Shown here: positions 30,795 to 37,395 of the stretch, in pieces
Layout of the letters: each line of letters starts with the position of its first letter
How positions within the stretch are numbered: position 1 is the first letter of the stretch
NCBI GenBank assembly: GCA_024232855.1
Contig: JAAEPH010000196.1
Coordinates: forward strand, 1-41,309
Direction of reading: 5' to 3'
Origin: Gammaproteobacteria bacterium
GTDB taxonomy: Bacteria; Pseudomonadota; Gammaproteobacteria; GCA-001735895
DNA length: 41,309 nt
Notes under the pieces: model-generated
The model's input: the letters and a program-made list of their open reading frames with translations, nothing else
The model's database searches: none
Told to the model about the DNA's origin: nothing
Program-made: the position numbers and the translations under genes

Positions 30795-31313
30795 CTATCC
30801 ATTGTCTGCAATACGCTTGCTGTGCAGGTCGCTGGCCTGGTCTATCGCCTCCCAATCAAGCTCAAAACCCAAACCTGGCCCATTTAATACCGGCAATTTA
30901 CCATTTTGCGGGGACAAGTCCGGAGACTTGACGATGTCCCATTCAAGGAAATGGTTCATGTACTGATTGCCGTCATCAAGATTGGGTAAGGTCGCCGCCA
31001 CCTGGTTCGCGGCACAGGTGGTGATGCCGGTTTCGTAAAGTCCATGGATGCAAATGTCGATTCCGGCCGCCTCGGCAATATGCGCAACCTTGCTGAATCG
31101 CAGCAATCCGCCGGTCTCGTGCAAGCCCAGCACAATAAGGTTCGCGGCGTTTTCGCGGCAAACATTGTAGGCATCGTAGGGGGTGAACACGAGTTGATCG
31201 GCAGCAATCGCGACCTGGCTATTGGAGCGCACCTGCGCAAGCGCCGCGACACTTTCGCAATGAGTCGGTTGCTCGACGAACTCCACATCGGATTTGCCGG
31301 CGACACCGCTCAT
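30795..31313 (-). pseudogene. C-terminal half of an enolase-superfamily (mandelate racemase/muconate lactonizing) enzyme
   Basis: About 165 residues match the C-terminal barrel of enolase-superfamily enzymes: DVEFVEQPTHCESVAALAQV, IAADQLVFTPYDAY, NLIVLGLHETGGLLRFSKVA, ICIHGLYETGITTCAANQ and the end WEAIDQ. The N-terminal capping domain and the first catalytic Lys region are missing. Upstream, in frame, lies a short unrelated stretch (SYGNPYTISYTADG) that looks like part of a surface-protein Ig-like repeat, so the 5' end has been replaced. Not expected to be active. Confidence 0.7.
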
Positions 31314-31604
31314 TGCGCCATCCGCCGTATAAGAGATCGTGTATGGATTACCATAACTATTGACCTGATTAGCACGAATGTTCAGTCAGGCACTCGGATT
31401 GAGTCATTGCTTTTACCAAACCATCGCTAAGATCACGAACCGGAGAACAATCAAGGCTTTCTTACACAATTGTTGCGCGCTGCCGTGACTATTGACCTAA
31501 CCCATCTTTAACACCCCCATTTGCAATTCCTTTGTAATCAACAAGTTGCCGATGTCAATTTGCTCAAGTGGCACTACAAAGTGCACATTTTGTGGATTTC
31601 TGTT

Positions 31605-32741
31605 TCAGATGATCAGCTTGTTCACCCCTCCAGGGGAAGGATCGATGTTCAAAGATTTATAGATGGCGAGCTGTTCCGGCTCCGCACGGGTGGCCTTACG
31701 TACATGCAAAGTCCGGCTATCGGCTCGACGAAAGGTAGCCGTGATGCGGCACTGATTGTTCAGAGTTTCCCGCAAGCTACGCCAACTGTCATGAATGCCC
31801 TGTTCCCCGAGTCTGCGCCGGATTAGCTGCACTAATTGATAGGCCAGAACGGTAATGAACAGATGACCGTCGCAGCGTTCTTCCTTGTGATGGTAGACAG
31901 GGCGCAGCCCCAGCTCCGATTTCAGACTGCGGAACACCGCTTCAAGATCGGTCAGCATGATATAGGTGCGCCACATCCGTTCTTCGTCCCAGTCGGTTTC
32001 ATTACTGCGCAGTGAATAGACACCGGGATGGGGCACCAGCGTGCCTTCAATGGGTTTGCGTTGCCAGTGTATCGCCTTGGCCTGCTCCCCGCTTTCATCC
32101 GCAATCAACTCAATGTGATAATGCTGGCTGACGCCGCGACTCTTTTCCTTGAGACGCCCGATGCGCTCCCAGAGCTTATCGATGCGTTTGGTCGTGCGTG
32201 GGCGGGACAGCCCCTGTGAGATTTTTTCCAGGCCCGCTTCGAAGCGGGCCATAAATCGTTTGGCGATACCTTCTTCTTTCTTTGCGCGACGTTCCGAGTA
32301 GCAGTAGAGGCGAACTTCCTTGCCATCCTCGGAGTGCACCTTTTTCAGATGCACCTTCTCCCCGGTGGCGGTCTCGATAGTCGTACAATCCTCAGGATCG
32401 AACTCGCGCGCTCGACTCCGGTTCACCACCAGATAACGGTATCCCTGCTCCTGCATCCAGGTCAGGTTCTTTTGCGTGGCAATCCCCTGGTCGAGTACCA
32501 CCCGAGCCCCCCTGGGAGCCTGCAAGGCCTGCAGCATCCCGGATAAAGTATGGCCTTCAAAGACATTACCAGCAAAGACCTCAGATCGGCGCACAAAGCC
32601 ACTGCCATCGAGTATCAATCCCAGTGTCAGCAGCGGGCAGTCGCTGCGCTTCTCCCTGGATCGGCCGCGTTGGGCTTTCGGGTTAGCACCCGTATCGCCT
32701 TCGAAATAAGTGTTGGTCAGGTCGTAGAGAGTTACGGTATT
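31605..32741 (-). mobile_element. Truncated IS1634/IS4-type transposase
   Basis: The frame encodes the C-terminal two-thirds of an IS1634-like DDE transposase. An in-frame region, VTLYDLTNTYFEGD, continues upstream of the first start at 32618 until a stop near 32742, then LGLILDGSGFVRRSEVFAGN. An H/E-rich VLDQGIATQKNLTWM, then YIMLTDLEAVFRSLKSELGL and the tail follow. Full members are about 500 residues or more; about 150 N-terminal residues are missing. No clear terminal inverted repeats were found. The copy is probably dead and lies between an enolase-like and an EF-G-like stump. Confidence 0.75.
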
Positions 32742-32817
32742 TCACAGAGCAGCAGCATTCGGGACACACACTTTGTCGCCCCAAACCGGCATGATAAGCG
32801 GTACTACTTCACTGCGG

Positions 32818-33663
32818 TTAGTCGACCGACTCACTGGGCCTGTAAGCATCCACAAGCTCCTTCTGTTTACCGGGTGGTACCGGACTGTAATAGCTGAAGG
32901 CCAATGCGTAGCTGCCTTCGCCGAACTGGCCTGCTCCCCCGGTCCGCTTCTTATGGCGATGGTGGCCCTCGGCGGTTCTGGTTACGGTCTCCCTGCAGGC
33001 GATGCCGGGGGGCTGGGCTTCCACCTCCACATTGTACTGATCGCGCATTTTCTCCAGTACGATCCTGAGGTGCAGTTCGCCCACACCGTAGAGCACGGTT
33101 TCGTTCAGCGATATCCGGTGTTCCACCCGCAGGCTCGGATCTTCGACCTCGAGCTTGTGCAGTGCTGTCGATAATTTCTGTTCGTCCCCATGCCGGGTGG
33201 GCTGGATGGCGAGTCCGTACATCGGAGGCGGTAGCACGAACGGGCGCAAATGGTGATGATCCTCGTCGTGGGAATCGTGCAACACATCGTCAAAGGAAAT
33301 CTCATCGACCTTGGATACCGCACAGATGTCACCCGGGATCGCCGTGACCACCGCGGTATGCTGCTTCCCCTGGATTTTATAGAGATGCGCCACCTTGAAG
33401 CTTCTGGAATCGCCGATAAAGAGCTGCATGCCCGGTGTCACCGTACCCTGGTAGATGCGAAAAATACTCAAGCGCCCGACATAGGGATCGATGACTACCT
33501 TGAACACATGGGCGACCACGTGTTTACCTGGATCTGGAACAACCTCGATGGGCTTCACCGCATCACCCTCGCCTTTGAGGAATTGCGGCGGATTGCCCTC
33601 GAGCGGATTTGGCATGAGCCGCTCGAAAATGTTGCGGATATTTGCGGTGGAGTGTCTGGGCAT
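32818..33663 (-). pseudogene. Internal fragment of an elongation factor G-like GTPase
   Basis: About 280 residues from the middle of an EF-G-like protein: LERLMPNPLEG-like start (IFERLMPNPLEGNPPQFL), domain II (HVFKVVIDPYVGRLSIFRIY), domain III (SLRVEHRISLNETVLYGVGE) and the start of domain IV (HKKRTGGAGQFGEG). The entire N-terminal GTPase domain with its P-loop is absent. The C-terminus turns into unrelated residues after QFGE. The truncated transposase lies about 75 bases beyond its 3' end. It cannot act as a GTPase. Confidence 0.75.
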
Positions 33664-33766
33664 AAGATTTACTTCCTGCGGTGCAAGTTCTGACTTTAAA
33701 AGCCTAAAGCGCAAAGTATAAGAAGCATAAAAGCAATATTTCCAAATAACTAGCCCGGAAGGAACC

Positions 33767-33820
33767 AAAGGGGTCAGTATCGATTGATTCGTGACAAAAT
33801 CGATCGGTATTGCCCCTTTT
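33767..33820. repeat. Small imperfect palindrome (AAAGGGG ends)
   Basis: AAAGGGGTCAGTATCGATT on the left pairs imperfectly with AATCGATCGGTATTGCCCC on the right around a short loop. It marks the junction between the EF-G-like stump and the membrane protein stump. It resembles REP-type elements. Confidence 0.6.
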
Positions 33821-33827
33821 GATCTTT

Positions 33828-34967
33828 TGCACCTCGCCGAGTCCGGAATTGCCGCCGCGCGATAGCCTGAAATTGTTTGCCGGCGCGATCGCGGCGCTCG
33901 AATCACTGGGCGCTGAAAACATCGAGCGCCGGCTGGCGTTAATCCGCGGATGGCAAACCAGCACGCTGTTGATCAAAAACGGTGAGATAAGCGCCGCGGA
34001 CATTATCACGATCAAGGATTTCTGCAGGCAGCGGTCGTTCGACCTGGCCTATTATCCGGATATGCCGGCGAACGAGGCAAACCGCTACAACCAGTTTGAA
34101 GCATCCTATTTCCACGACGGCGCACGGGCGCTGCTCGGCGGCCAGCGCGATCGGTTCCTGCAGGATTACAAGTTCGATCTCGAGCCGGCGACCGACGACC
34201 GCCCGTTCCATTCCCACTTCGTAAAATGGAGCAGCCTGTCTGAATTGATCGGGCTGCGACACCGGGGTGGCAGTGCGTTACTGGAGACCGGTTACCTTAC
34301 CCTGGCGATCACGCTGGTGCTGGCGTTACTGTTCAGCATGCTGCTTATCCTGTTGCCGCTTACTTTTTTACGCCGGGATATTGTGCGAATGGCCGGGCAC
34401 TCGAGCAGCCTCAAGGTGCTCGCCTATTTCTTCGCGCTGGGGCTGGGTTTCCTGCTGATGGAGATTGCTTTTTTGCAGAAATTCATACTGCTGTTGCATC
34501 ATCCAATTTACGCGGCTGCGGTGGTATTGGCTTCGTTCCTGGCCGCAGCCGGCGCCGGCAGCGCCTACGCGCAGCGCTTTGCCGGTCAGATTCGTTCGAA
34601 AAAAGTCACCACCGCCGCGGTAGCGGTGATCACCGCGTTCGGCCTGGCGTACCTGGCGCTACTCGAACCATTGATGCAGTTAGCCGGAAGTTGGCAGTTT
34701 GGCGCCAGGATACTGCTCAGCATCGCGTTGATCGCGCCACTGGGTTTTTGCATGGGGATGCCATTCCCGATCGGCCTGTCCGCGCTTACCACGGGCCCGC
34801 CCTCGCTGACCGCCTGGGCCTGGGGCATCAATGGTTGCGCATCGGTGATCAGCGCGATCCTGGCAACCCTGCTCGCTATCCATTTTGGTTTTAATGCCGT
34901 GATCGTGCTGGCGCTTGGCTGTTATTTGGCGGCAGCGGTTAGTTTTCCTGAATCAGCATCTGGCTGA
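33828..34967 (+). pseudogene. C-terminal part of a spermidine-synthase-like integral membrane protein
   Basis: The frame encodes about 380 residues: the end of a methyltransferase-like soluble domain (PPRDSLKLFAGAIAALESLG, LALIRGWQTSTLLIKNGE, ATDDRPFHSHFVKWSSL) followed by several transmembrane helices (LTLAITLVLALLFSMLLILL through VISAILATLLAIHFG). Complete relatives have an N-terminal membrane and SAM-binding part of several hundred residues, missing here. The homology begins abruptly next to the palindrome at 33767. A TTG at 33810 inside the palindrome is the only start, so expression is doubtful. Confidence 0.65.
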
Positions 34968-35280: not shown

Positions 35281-36021
35281 ATGCGACAGTATTCATTGGT
35301 AATGTTTTCGCTTTTCCTGTTGCAATTTACCTCGCCTGTCGCCATGGCGCGCGATGTGACCATGCTGACCCTGAACTGGGCGCCTCATTACGGGGAGGAG
35401 TTGCCCGAACAGGGGTTGACCACGGCGCTCGTCAAGGCGGCGTTCGAGGCCGGCGGGCATGATGCCGGCATCCAGTTCGTACCCTGGTCGCGTGCCTTGA
35501 AGGAAGTCGAAGAGGGTAAGGCGGATGTGGTTATGGGTGCGTATTACAACGACGAACGCACCGAGAAGTACATTTACAGCGACGTCATTTATCACCTGAA
35601 TGTCGGTCTTATCGCTCGCCCGGGCCTCAGCAAAACGCGATACGAATCCTTGCGCGAGCTGCGCGATTTCAGTATCGGCGTGTCGCGCGGCTTTGCCAAT
35701 AGCGAAGAATTCGATGCGGCCCAATATTTGAACAAGGACGTTGCCAGTACGCCGGTGCTCAATATTCGCAAGTTGTACCGGGGACGAATCGATATGGCGG
35801 TGATGAATTTTGACCTGTTTCGCTACGAGGCGAAAAAGGCAGGTCACTGTATCAGCAGCGTCACTTTCATGGATCCGCCGTTGAAAGAACACGGGCTTTA
35901 TGTCATGGCGTCTCGGAACATCCCGGACGGGGAAAAACTGATGCAGGATTTCAATACCGGCCTGGCGGCATTGCACGATAGCGGTAAGTTTGATCGTATT
36001 CTCAACCGCTTCCGCAATTAA
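35281..36021 (+). CDS. Periplasmic solute-binding protein (SBP family 3-like)
   Basis: Protein of 246 residues with a signal peptide (MRQYSLVMFSLFLLQFTSPV, cleaved after AMA). The mature part follows the family 3 binding-protein pattern: GLTTALVKAAFEAGG, IQFVPWSRALKEVEEGKADV, YYNDERTEKYIYSDVIYHL, IGVSRGFANSEEF and a C-terminal helix KFDRILNRFRN. The start at 35281 has an AGGGGAG ribosome site; an upstream ATG at 35260 precedes that site. No ABC permease or ATPase is nearby. Instead a HAMP membrane sensor follows 32 bases downstream, suggesting a ligand-sensing rather than transport role. Confidence 0.8.
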   Translation: MRQYSLVMFSLFLLQFTSPVAMARDVTMLTLNWAPHYGEELPEQGLTTALVKAAFEAGGHDAGIQFVPWSRALKEVEEGKADVVMGAYYNDERTEKYIYSDVIYHLNVGLIARPGLSKTRYESLRELRDFSIGVSRGFANSEEFDAAQYLNKDVASTPVLNIRKLYRGRIDMAVMNFDLFRYEAKKAGHCISSVTFMDPPLKEHGLYVMASRNIPDGEKLMQDFNTGLAALHDSGKFDRILNRFRN

Positions 36022-36053
36022 TCCCACGAACTTTCAGAGGGAGAGCAAAGATT

Positions 36054-36782
36054 ATGAGTAAGGACAATATCAGTTGGTACAGCACAGTTCGCATGAAGGT
36101 CGTGCTGGTTGTCATCATCTCCTGCACGCTGGTGTTGGGCGGTCTGAGTGCCTATAACACCATCAACGATCAAAACCGGCTCAATGCCGACCTGCAAAAA
36201 CTGGCGCGTGTAACCACCCAGCGATTATCCAAACACTTGATCGGTCCAATGTGGGACCTGGACAAGGAGCTGGTCGACTCGACCCTGGAAGCCGAAATGC
36301 TGGAAGACAATATCGAGGCAATCGTCGTCTGGGATGAAGACAAGTCGACCATCTTCTCCGCGCGTGAACGTGGACCGACCGGATTGCCGACGGTGTCGAC
36401 CGGCGCCGTAACCGGCGATTTGATCAAGGCGCAGGTCGGGGTTAACAATGGCGAAAAGGACATTGGGCAGGTGGCAGTCTTCGTTTCCATGAACCAGCTC
36501 AACCGGCAGCTCAGGGCATCCATGATCGCCAACCTGATTACCCTGCTGGCGATGATCACTGTCATGGCAATCGTCATATCCATCGTCATGAACCAGGTGA
36601 TCATCGGCCCGATTACGCGCCTGGCCAAGCATGCGGATGACATCAGCCATGGCGACTTGAAACAGAGCATCGTTGCCGAGTCCAACGATGAAATTGGCCA
36701 GCTCGCGGAAGCCTTTCATCGCATGCAGAACAGTTTGCGCGTAGCCTTCAAACGGCTGTATGCTAGAGCCAAGGCAAAATAA
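36054..36782 (+). CDS. Membrane sensor with periplasmic domain and HAMP domain, no output domain
   Basis: Protein of 242 residues. Transmembrane helix 1 spans about residues 14-34 (MKVVLVVIISCTLVLGG). A periplasmic domain of about 120 residues follows (WDLDKELVDSTLEAEMLEDN, AQVGVNNGEKDIGQVAVFVS), resembling the sensing region of double-membrane-spanning sensors. Helix 2 covers about 156-178 and a HAMP linker about 179-232 (GPITRLAKHADDISHGDL, NDEIGQLAEAFHRMQNSLR). The protein ends at the point where a kinase, cyclase or chemoreceptor domain would start; the frame is not broken and the stop overlaps the next gene. It probably signals by contact with a partner. Confidence 0.8.
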   Translation: MSKDNISWYSTVRMKVVLVVIISCTLVLGGLSAYNTINDQNRLNADLQKLARVTTQRLSKHLIGPMWDLDKELVDSTLEAEMLEDNIEAIVVWDEDKSTIFSARERGPTGLPTVSTGAVTGDLIKAQVGVNNGEKDIGQVAVFVSMNQLNRQLRASMIANLITLLAMITVMAIVISIVMNQVIIGPITRLAKHADDISHGDLKQSIVAESNDEIGQLAEAFHRMQNSLRVAFKRLYARAKAK

Positions 36783-37395
36783 TCGGCCACGCTCACGAGA
36801 TGAGGTCGATTCAATTGTACATAAATCAGTGAGTGACTGGATCACATACAACGATTTCGTCGACATGGTGCGAGATCATCATCACAGCGGGTTTACCGGC
36901 CTGGTAACCGGGGTGAGCGACAAACAGCACGCCTTCAAGATCGGTTTCAATCGCGGCCAGATCGTGCTGCTAACCTACCGCATCAGAAAAGGCATTCAGG
37001 CCCTGGAGCTGTTGGAGCAGATCAAACACGCCAAGATAACCGAGTACCCGACCAGCAAAGGTCAATACAATATGGAAGGTATGCCGGATACCTCCACGAT
37101 ACTGTCGCAGCTCACCTCCGGTACACTCGACGATACGACGGTAACGAAAATCAGCGACGTCCCCGAGCTGGGCTCTTCCGCCAATACCTTCACTAAGAAC
37201 ATCGATCCCGTCATGCGCAAGAATATCGAAGTTGCCGCGATGCATCATTTTGGTCCAATCGGGGCGATGGTTTGTGAAGAACTGATAAATGACTATCGGG
37301 GCGATTTGCGCACGCTCGTATTTGCGATCGCGCAGGAAGTAGGCGCCGACGAATCCGATACGCGAGCGTTTTTCGAATCGATTTCCGCAGAATGA
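36760..37395 (+). CDS. Soluble PATAN/DUF4388-like signalling protein
   Basis: Protein of 211 residues without signal or membrane segments. Residues about 30-100 (FVDMVRDHHHSGFTGLVTGV, FKIGFNRGQIVLLTYRIRKG, then ALELLEQI) resemble the PATAN/DUF4388 module, which reads as G-x-I-xF-xxG-x-I followed by a helix. The C-terminal about 70 residues (MHHFGPIGAMVCEELINDYR, then GDLRTLVFAIAQEVGADESD) resemble the small helical domain that often ends such proteins. The match is by eye and moderate. It overlaps the HAMP sensor gene by 23 bases, so the two are co-translated and may form one complex. The 280 bases downstream show no gene I can identify. Confidence 0.65.
   Translation: MLEPRQNNRPRSRDEVDSIVHKSVSDWITYNDFVDMVRDHHHSGFTGLVTGVSDKQHAFKIGFNRGQIVLLTYRIRKGIQALELLEQIKHAKITEYPTSKGQYNMEGMPDTSTILSQLTSGTLDDTTVTKISDVPELGSSANTFTKNIDPVMRKNIEVAAMHHFGPIGAMVCEELINDYRGDLRTLVFAIAQEVGADESDTRAFFESISAE

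Follow-up and report, generated by a model that had tools for sequence, protein, structure and literature searches.

The three adjoining genes at positions 35281-37395 of the window (the whole 41,309-nucleotide stretch of gammaproteobacterial DNA analysed here) probably encode a transmembrane receptor made of separate chains, in which the C-terminal domain of the third protein, gC, serves as a general coupler to outputs. The name gC is coined in this analysis, as is that of the class, gC-coupled split receptors. An earlier note on this DNA had proposed a signalling route from a periplasmic binding protein through a HAMP sensor to a soluble PATAN-like protein. Much of that route is retained, as the conserved trio, the HAMP ending of the sensor and a trio in reverse order agree with it, whereas the PATAN N-terminus is given up as the point of contact. 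The same note knew of no described system composed like the trio; the trio is not an isolated case but one form of a wider pattern of gC proteins and HAMP-ended sensors.

All three open reading frames lie on the + strand and can be read in the window (gene 1, 35281-36021; gene 2, 36054-36782; a third frame from the ATG at 36760 to 37395), with the 32-base gap between genes 1 and 2 that had been described. The reported 23-base overlap of genes 2 and 3, however, is probably an artefact. Gene 3 begins in relatives with GTG, ATG or TTG followed by S/N-x-W, and the window has the GTG at 36829 as its counterpart; the gene is therefore 188 codons long and follows gene 2 after 46 bases (40-49 bases in most relatives). 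The description of the trio as intact within decayed surroundings is borne out on both counts. Comparison with genome G003 reveals purifying selection on all three genes (dN/dS of 0.06, 0.12 and 0.26 for genes 1, 2 and 3), and gene fragments lie near the trio in the window. The minus-strand fragments at 30795-33906 comprise an enolase-superfamily C-terminal piece, part of a transposase and an EF-G piece without its GTPase domain. The trio is flanked by genes for a GNAT acetyltransferase, an FMN oxidoreductase and a polytopic protein that matches no Pfam family. No transporter gene adjoins it, as had been stated, and the ABC permease and ATPase genes that would mark an ABC uptake system were sought beside it and not found.

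Gene 1 encodes a periplasmic solute-binding protein of 246 residues, which matches PF00497 (SBP_bac_3, solute-binding protein family 3) at E 2.4e-11 and 44 bits against a cut-off of 26.4. Its hydrophobic N-terminus marks a signal peptide at about residues 1-23, and a lipobox is absent. Orthologues are 62-78% identical and adjoin the same sensor. The solved structures related to gene 1 in a sequence search are amino-acid-binding proteins, and its ligand is probably small and amino-acid-like. Gene 2 encodes a membrane sensor of 242 residues that runs from TM1 through a periplasmic domain of ~120 residues (YfiN/CHASE8-like), TM2 and HAMP (residues 182-229) to a 13-residue exit helix. The HAMP domain matches PF00672 at E 7e-14 (52.3 bits vs a cut-off of 25) with TM2 just ahead of it, and the model NF053592 (HK_near_YfiR_like) matches residues 14-225 below its cut-off. 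The claim that this sensor lacks an output agrees with its architecture of two membrane segments and only 13 residues after HAMP; a search of the chain for kinase, cyclase, MCP and GGDEF/EAL output domains found none. Profile searches of the contigs of the incomplete genome to which the window's contig belongs found nine HAMP proteins, of which only gene 2 ends at HAMP, and a single gC gene, gene 3, which adjoins this single HAMP-ended sensor.

Gene 3, read from its corrected start (36829-37395, + strand), encodes a soluble PATAN-gC protein of 188 residues. The AlphaFold2 model, built with 39 diverse sequences, has a pLDDT of 83 and two confident domains (residues 1-97 and 127-187) separated by a disordered linker. 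Residues 1-97 (36829-37119) are predicted, in the model by itself, to be a compact alpha/beta domain of the order E-H-EEE-H-E-H at high confidence. The gC domain occupies residues 125-188 (37201-37392), as defined by an alignment of 61 sequences (A6); it has the core (H)xGPIG and spans ~60 residues in four predicted helices. The assignment of gene 3 as PATAN/DUF4388-like draws on weak PF14332 matches from several independent members among its relatives, in the part modelled as alpha/beta, but these matches (E 0.005-0.2) stay under the Pfam cut-off, with a best score of 17.2 bits against the curated 25 bits. The window's own gene 3 gave no match to PF14332, and no DUF4388 above the cut-off was found in 57 relatives. 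A receiver domain (REC, Response_reg) was sought in gene 3 and is absent, its C-terminus being gC. No Pfam family matched gC, neither gene 3 (A7) nor gC (A6) had a significant sequence match among solved structures, and comparing the fold of both gene 3 models with PDB entries and viral structures brought up chance-level matches only. The modelled fold of gene 3 is not of a clearly unrelated kind. Positions 37201-37389 of the window match A6 at E 2.0e-16, a value obtained with the window sequence itself within A6; profile A4, built without the window sequence, retrieves gene 3 at 1.1e-10.

Conservation of the trio was counted in 57 related genomes. The gene 2 sensor occurs in 12 genomes including the window's, the other 11 copies being 68-77% identical. 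The binding protein adjoins the sensor in 12 of 12 (as a fragment in G021), and gene 3 adjoins it in 11 of 12, so that the homologues are not mostly found apart; G017, a case that counts against the reading preferred here, has genes 1 and 2 and no gene 3. A kinase gene lies near the trio in three genomes only, and a kinase or MCP output is thus not always supplied next door. The arrangement recurs in several contexts, including the order 3-2-1 in a different family (G189, locus L104), and because the flanking genes vary between genome groups, the trio has been kept together while its neighbourhood changed. Gene 3 occurs without the sensor at seven loci, at full length in four and cut to 117 residues lacking gC in three. 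At the compared sensor-less loci it is still constrained (dN/dS ~0.2), which counts against our preferred reading, and it may therefore serve another sensor there. The 117-residue copies (L037:6971-7324, L041:276-629 and L038:7038-7391) keep the PATAN-like part at a dN/dS of ~0.2, with gC lost and the sensor missing.

Other output types also carry gC. PATAN-gC profiles retrieve the C-termini of Ser/Thr kinases as well, often with two copies, and a gC profile further retrieves two more kinds of protein with gC at the C-terminus, class III cyclases and small ACT-like proteins; the domain is present in 38 of 369 sampled Gammaproteobacteria (A6). Pairing was scored as a sensor ending at HAMP within 600 bases of each fetched gC gene, with the kinase and cyclase classes set by motif, and by Pfam on representatives. 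Such a sensor lies near 34 of 40 PATAN-gC genes, 22 of 42 kinase-gC genes (six misses at contig ends) and 13 of 18 cyclase, ACT-like and unclassified gC genes (all misses at contig ends), counts that include many close relatives in an adjacency spanning ~20 families by handle. The gC gene and the sensor share a strand in 69 of 69 pairs. Away from contig ends, 14 of 36 kinase-gC genes have no HAMP-ended sensor within 600 bases, which also counts against the preferred reading; the genomes are fragmented assemblies, many of them metagenomic, and contig ends may distort the counts of absences. Similarity to gene 3 or gC, and not HAMP, led to most of the loci; L091 and L092 were fetched via HAMP and then recovered by the gC search. 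None of 13 PATAN genes without gC lies near a HAMP-ended sensor, and kinases and cyclases with gC often adjoin one; thus, gC tracks the headless sensors and PATAN does not. The genomic pairing of gC with HAMP-ended sensors is well supported.

The pairing extends to plasmids. DUF3365-HAMP sensors on alpha- and betaproteobacterial plasmids have an annotated Ser/Thr kinase with two gC domains directly after them in 6 of 6 cases. A HAMP-ended sensor also adjoins three more gC kinases from a phylum-wide sample, of which one is from outside the class. A search of plasmids for the PATAN-gC protein L169 found nothing. Several loci illustrate the range of arrangements. In G002, G008 and G020, the trio has a Ser/Thr kinase with two gC domains upstream of it in the same orientation (L032:4879-6369, L033:9803-11263 and L029:2831-4003), and one sensor may therefore feed two outputs. 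At L091:2311-3719 and L092:3038-4449, a HAMP-ended sensor is followed after two bases by a ~165-residue protein with an ACT-like N-terminus and gC. Cyclase-gC genes adjoin a HAMP-ended sensor at L158:3442-4296, L165:5922-7094 and L167:3617-4738, the class III call resting on Pfam for L158 and L165 and on similarity to L165 for L167; at L165 and L167, a kinase-gC gene also lies across the sensor from the cyclase. The plasmid pairs of DUF3365 sensor and kinase-gC at L314-L318 adjoin type VI secretion genes, with FecR-domain and PP2C phosphatase genes sometimes present. The Ser/Thr kinases at L252, L253, L254, L256, L257, L260, L276, L277, L279 and L281 carry gC once or twice and have no HAMP-ended neighbour. 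The PATAN-like proteins without gC at L142-L145, L147 and L148 mostly lie by receiver-domain-like genes and large HAMP proteins, a setting that is possibly chemotaxis-like.

HAMP-ended sensors share a characteristic exit from the HAMP domain. In gene 2, the exit motif and C-terminal tail (GQLAEAFHRMQNSLRVAFKRLYARAKAK) lie at 36696-36779 on the + strand. The pattern [AST][FIVL]x[RLKS][MLI]xx[SA][LIMV], directly past the DEI motif, is found in 54 of 54 HAMP-ended sensors, from whose inspection it was picked, and in 1 of 31 HAMP proteins with fused outputs. Because of this post hoc choice, the pattern was checked on sensors from loci outside it, and it is present in 10 of 10 of a later set, which was fetched after the choice, contains the six plasmid DUF3365-HAMP sensors and is made up in part of sensors retrieved by their similarity to one of the first set. 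A cyanobacterial sensor of the later set had no detected gC neighbour. The motif is common to sensors with unlike periplasmic domains (dCache, Tll0287 and CHASE8-like). Very short TM-HAMP proteins of 129 residues (L095:3258-3647, L096:4840-5229 and L097:3985-4374) also bear it, with no gC gene seen adjoining. L170 is the sole fused-output protein with the pattern, and its input region and that of gene 2 are homologous: in G413 (L170, from another class), the periplasmic and HAMP parts are fused to a PAS-rich hybrid histidine kinase. Since a relative of gene 1 lies ahead of this fusion, the binding-protein-sensor pair seems to be older than its output, which seems to have been exchanged.

Together, these observations suggest how a signal may cross the membrane. 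Gene 1 would capture its ligand in the periplasm and act on the periplasmic domain of gene 2, a step that we consider likely. Gene 2, presumably a dimer, would relay the change via HAMP to the exit helix, where the motif is observed and the motion is conjectural. The gC domain of gene 3 would then dock on the HAMP exit; genome context pairs the two, and their contact is the step in which we place the most confidence. Docked gC would control the PATAN-like output domain, for which binding a further protein, and not making a chemical signal, has about an even chance of being the mode of action. The pilus motor is an unlikely target: PilB homologues occur in 18 of 18 carriers searched, 12 of them above the cut-off, which permits a pilus role and does not support it. 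Elsewhere, the outputs that gC couples to HAMP-ended sensors would be Ser/Thr kinases, class III cyclases or ACT-like proteins.

The alternative that survives best, although improbable, holds that the three genes have an operon and a signal in common without contact between their products; gene 3 would answer another partner, and the sensor would act by pairing, elsewhere in the cell, with a complete HAMP receptor. The constraint on gene 3 where the local sensor has been lost fits this explanation, and adjacency by itself is no proof of contact. However, gC and not PATAN tracks HAMP-ended sensors over four output types, and in the window's genome the sole such sensor adjoins the sole gC gene. 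The exit motif is also largely missing from complete HAMP receptors, and mixed dimers are therefore not favoured by it. Less probable again is a gC-bearing Ser/Thr kinase as the main output, with the PATAN-gC protein modulating it or competing for the same docking site; the two-gC kinases upstream of the trio in three genomes suit this idea, whereas the window's genome shows no gC gene besides gene 3 and most PATAN-gC pairs have no adjoining kinase. That gene 2 is what decay has left of a conventional sensor kinase or cyclase, next to an unrelated gene 3, is hardly credible and already contradicted by conservation, for although a hybrid histidine kinase elsewhere carries the same input region and decayed genes lie nearby, the sensor ends at an identical point in all gene 2 relatives (dN/dS 0.11-0.12), and dozens of sensors with other periplasmic domains have the same ending and motif.

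The receptor of separate chains resembles known systems in its parts. YfiR-YfiN and LapD-type systems have two membrane helices that enclose a small periplasmic domain, with HAMP next in the chain, and a separate periplasmic protein regulates them. Gene 2 shares this layout, whereas these systems carry GGDEF/EAL in the same chain and their periplasmic partner is no solute-binding protein. In NspS-MbaA, LuxP-LuxQ and ChvE-VirA, a periplasmic solute-binding-type protein is read by a membrane sensor, as proposed for the trio, but a cyclase/phosphodiesterase or kinase output is fused to the sensor. The published work on the ambruticin kinase proved unrelated. Among solved structures, Af1503 of Archaeoglobus fulgidus is a sequence relative of the HAMP domain of gene 2; it is the prototype HAMP structure, a membrane protein that ends in HAMP without an output domain (PMC3585426). 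Unlike gene 2, Af1503 is archaeal and described as lacking an input domain, and the passages on it describe no partner (PMC3585426). A sCache_heme (DUF3365/Tll0287) HAMP protein of Pseudomonas azotoformans binds nitric oxide and, like gene 2, has two membrane helices, a cytoplasmic HAMP domain and no output described in the passages on it, which also make no mention of a Ser/Thr kinase partner (PMC12889525). It is the same sensor type as partners of kinase-gC proteins, with a periplasmic domain unlike that of gene 2. PATAN proteins serve as protein-binding outputs, and the cyanobacterial PATAN response regulators PixG, PixE and LsiR act on the pilus motor PilB1 (PMC7690835, PMC10519157). These resemble gene 3 as soluble PATAN-type proteins that receive a sensor's signal via protein contact, e.g., PixD-PixE (PMC7690835, PMC10519157). 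In contrast, they carry a CheY-like receiver domain where gene 3 has gC, and the sensor of gene 3 is a HAMP-ended membrane protein.

On balance, we lean slightly towards HAMP-ended sensors and gC effectors forming a distinct class of split receptors, with gC in at least three classes of Pseudomonadota and with outputs and sensors interchangeable through the exit motif. No description of gC or of its pairing with HAMP-ended sensors was found in the open-access literature, which speaks only weakly for novelty. HAMP domains have usually been studied as connectors within a single chain. If the proposed receptor is real, the output of HAMP could be read by a separate protein, and partners would be supplied for 'headless' HAMP receptors, among them the DUF3365-HAMP proteins that bind nitric oxide. 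Many Ser/Thr kinases of bacteria that lack a known signal would gain an input, and the docking domain would offer a ready-made module for connecting sensors with outputs.
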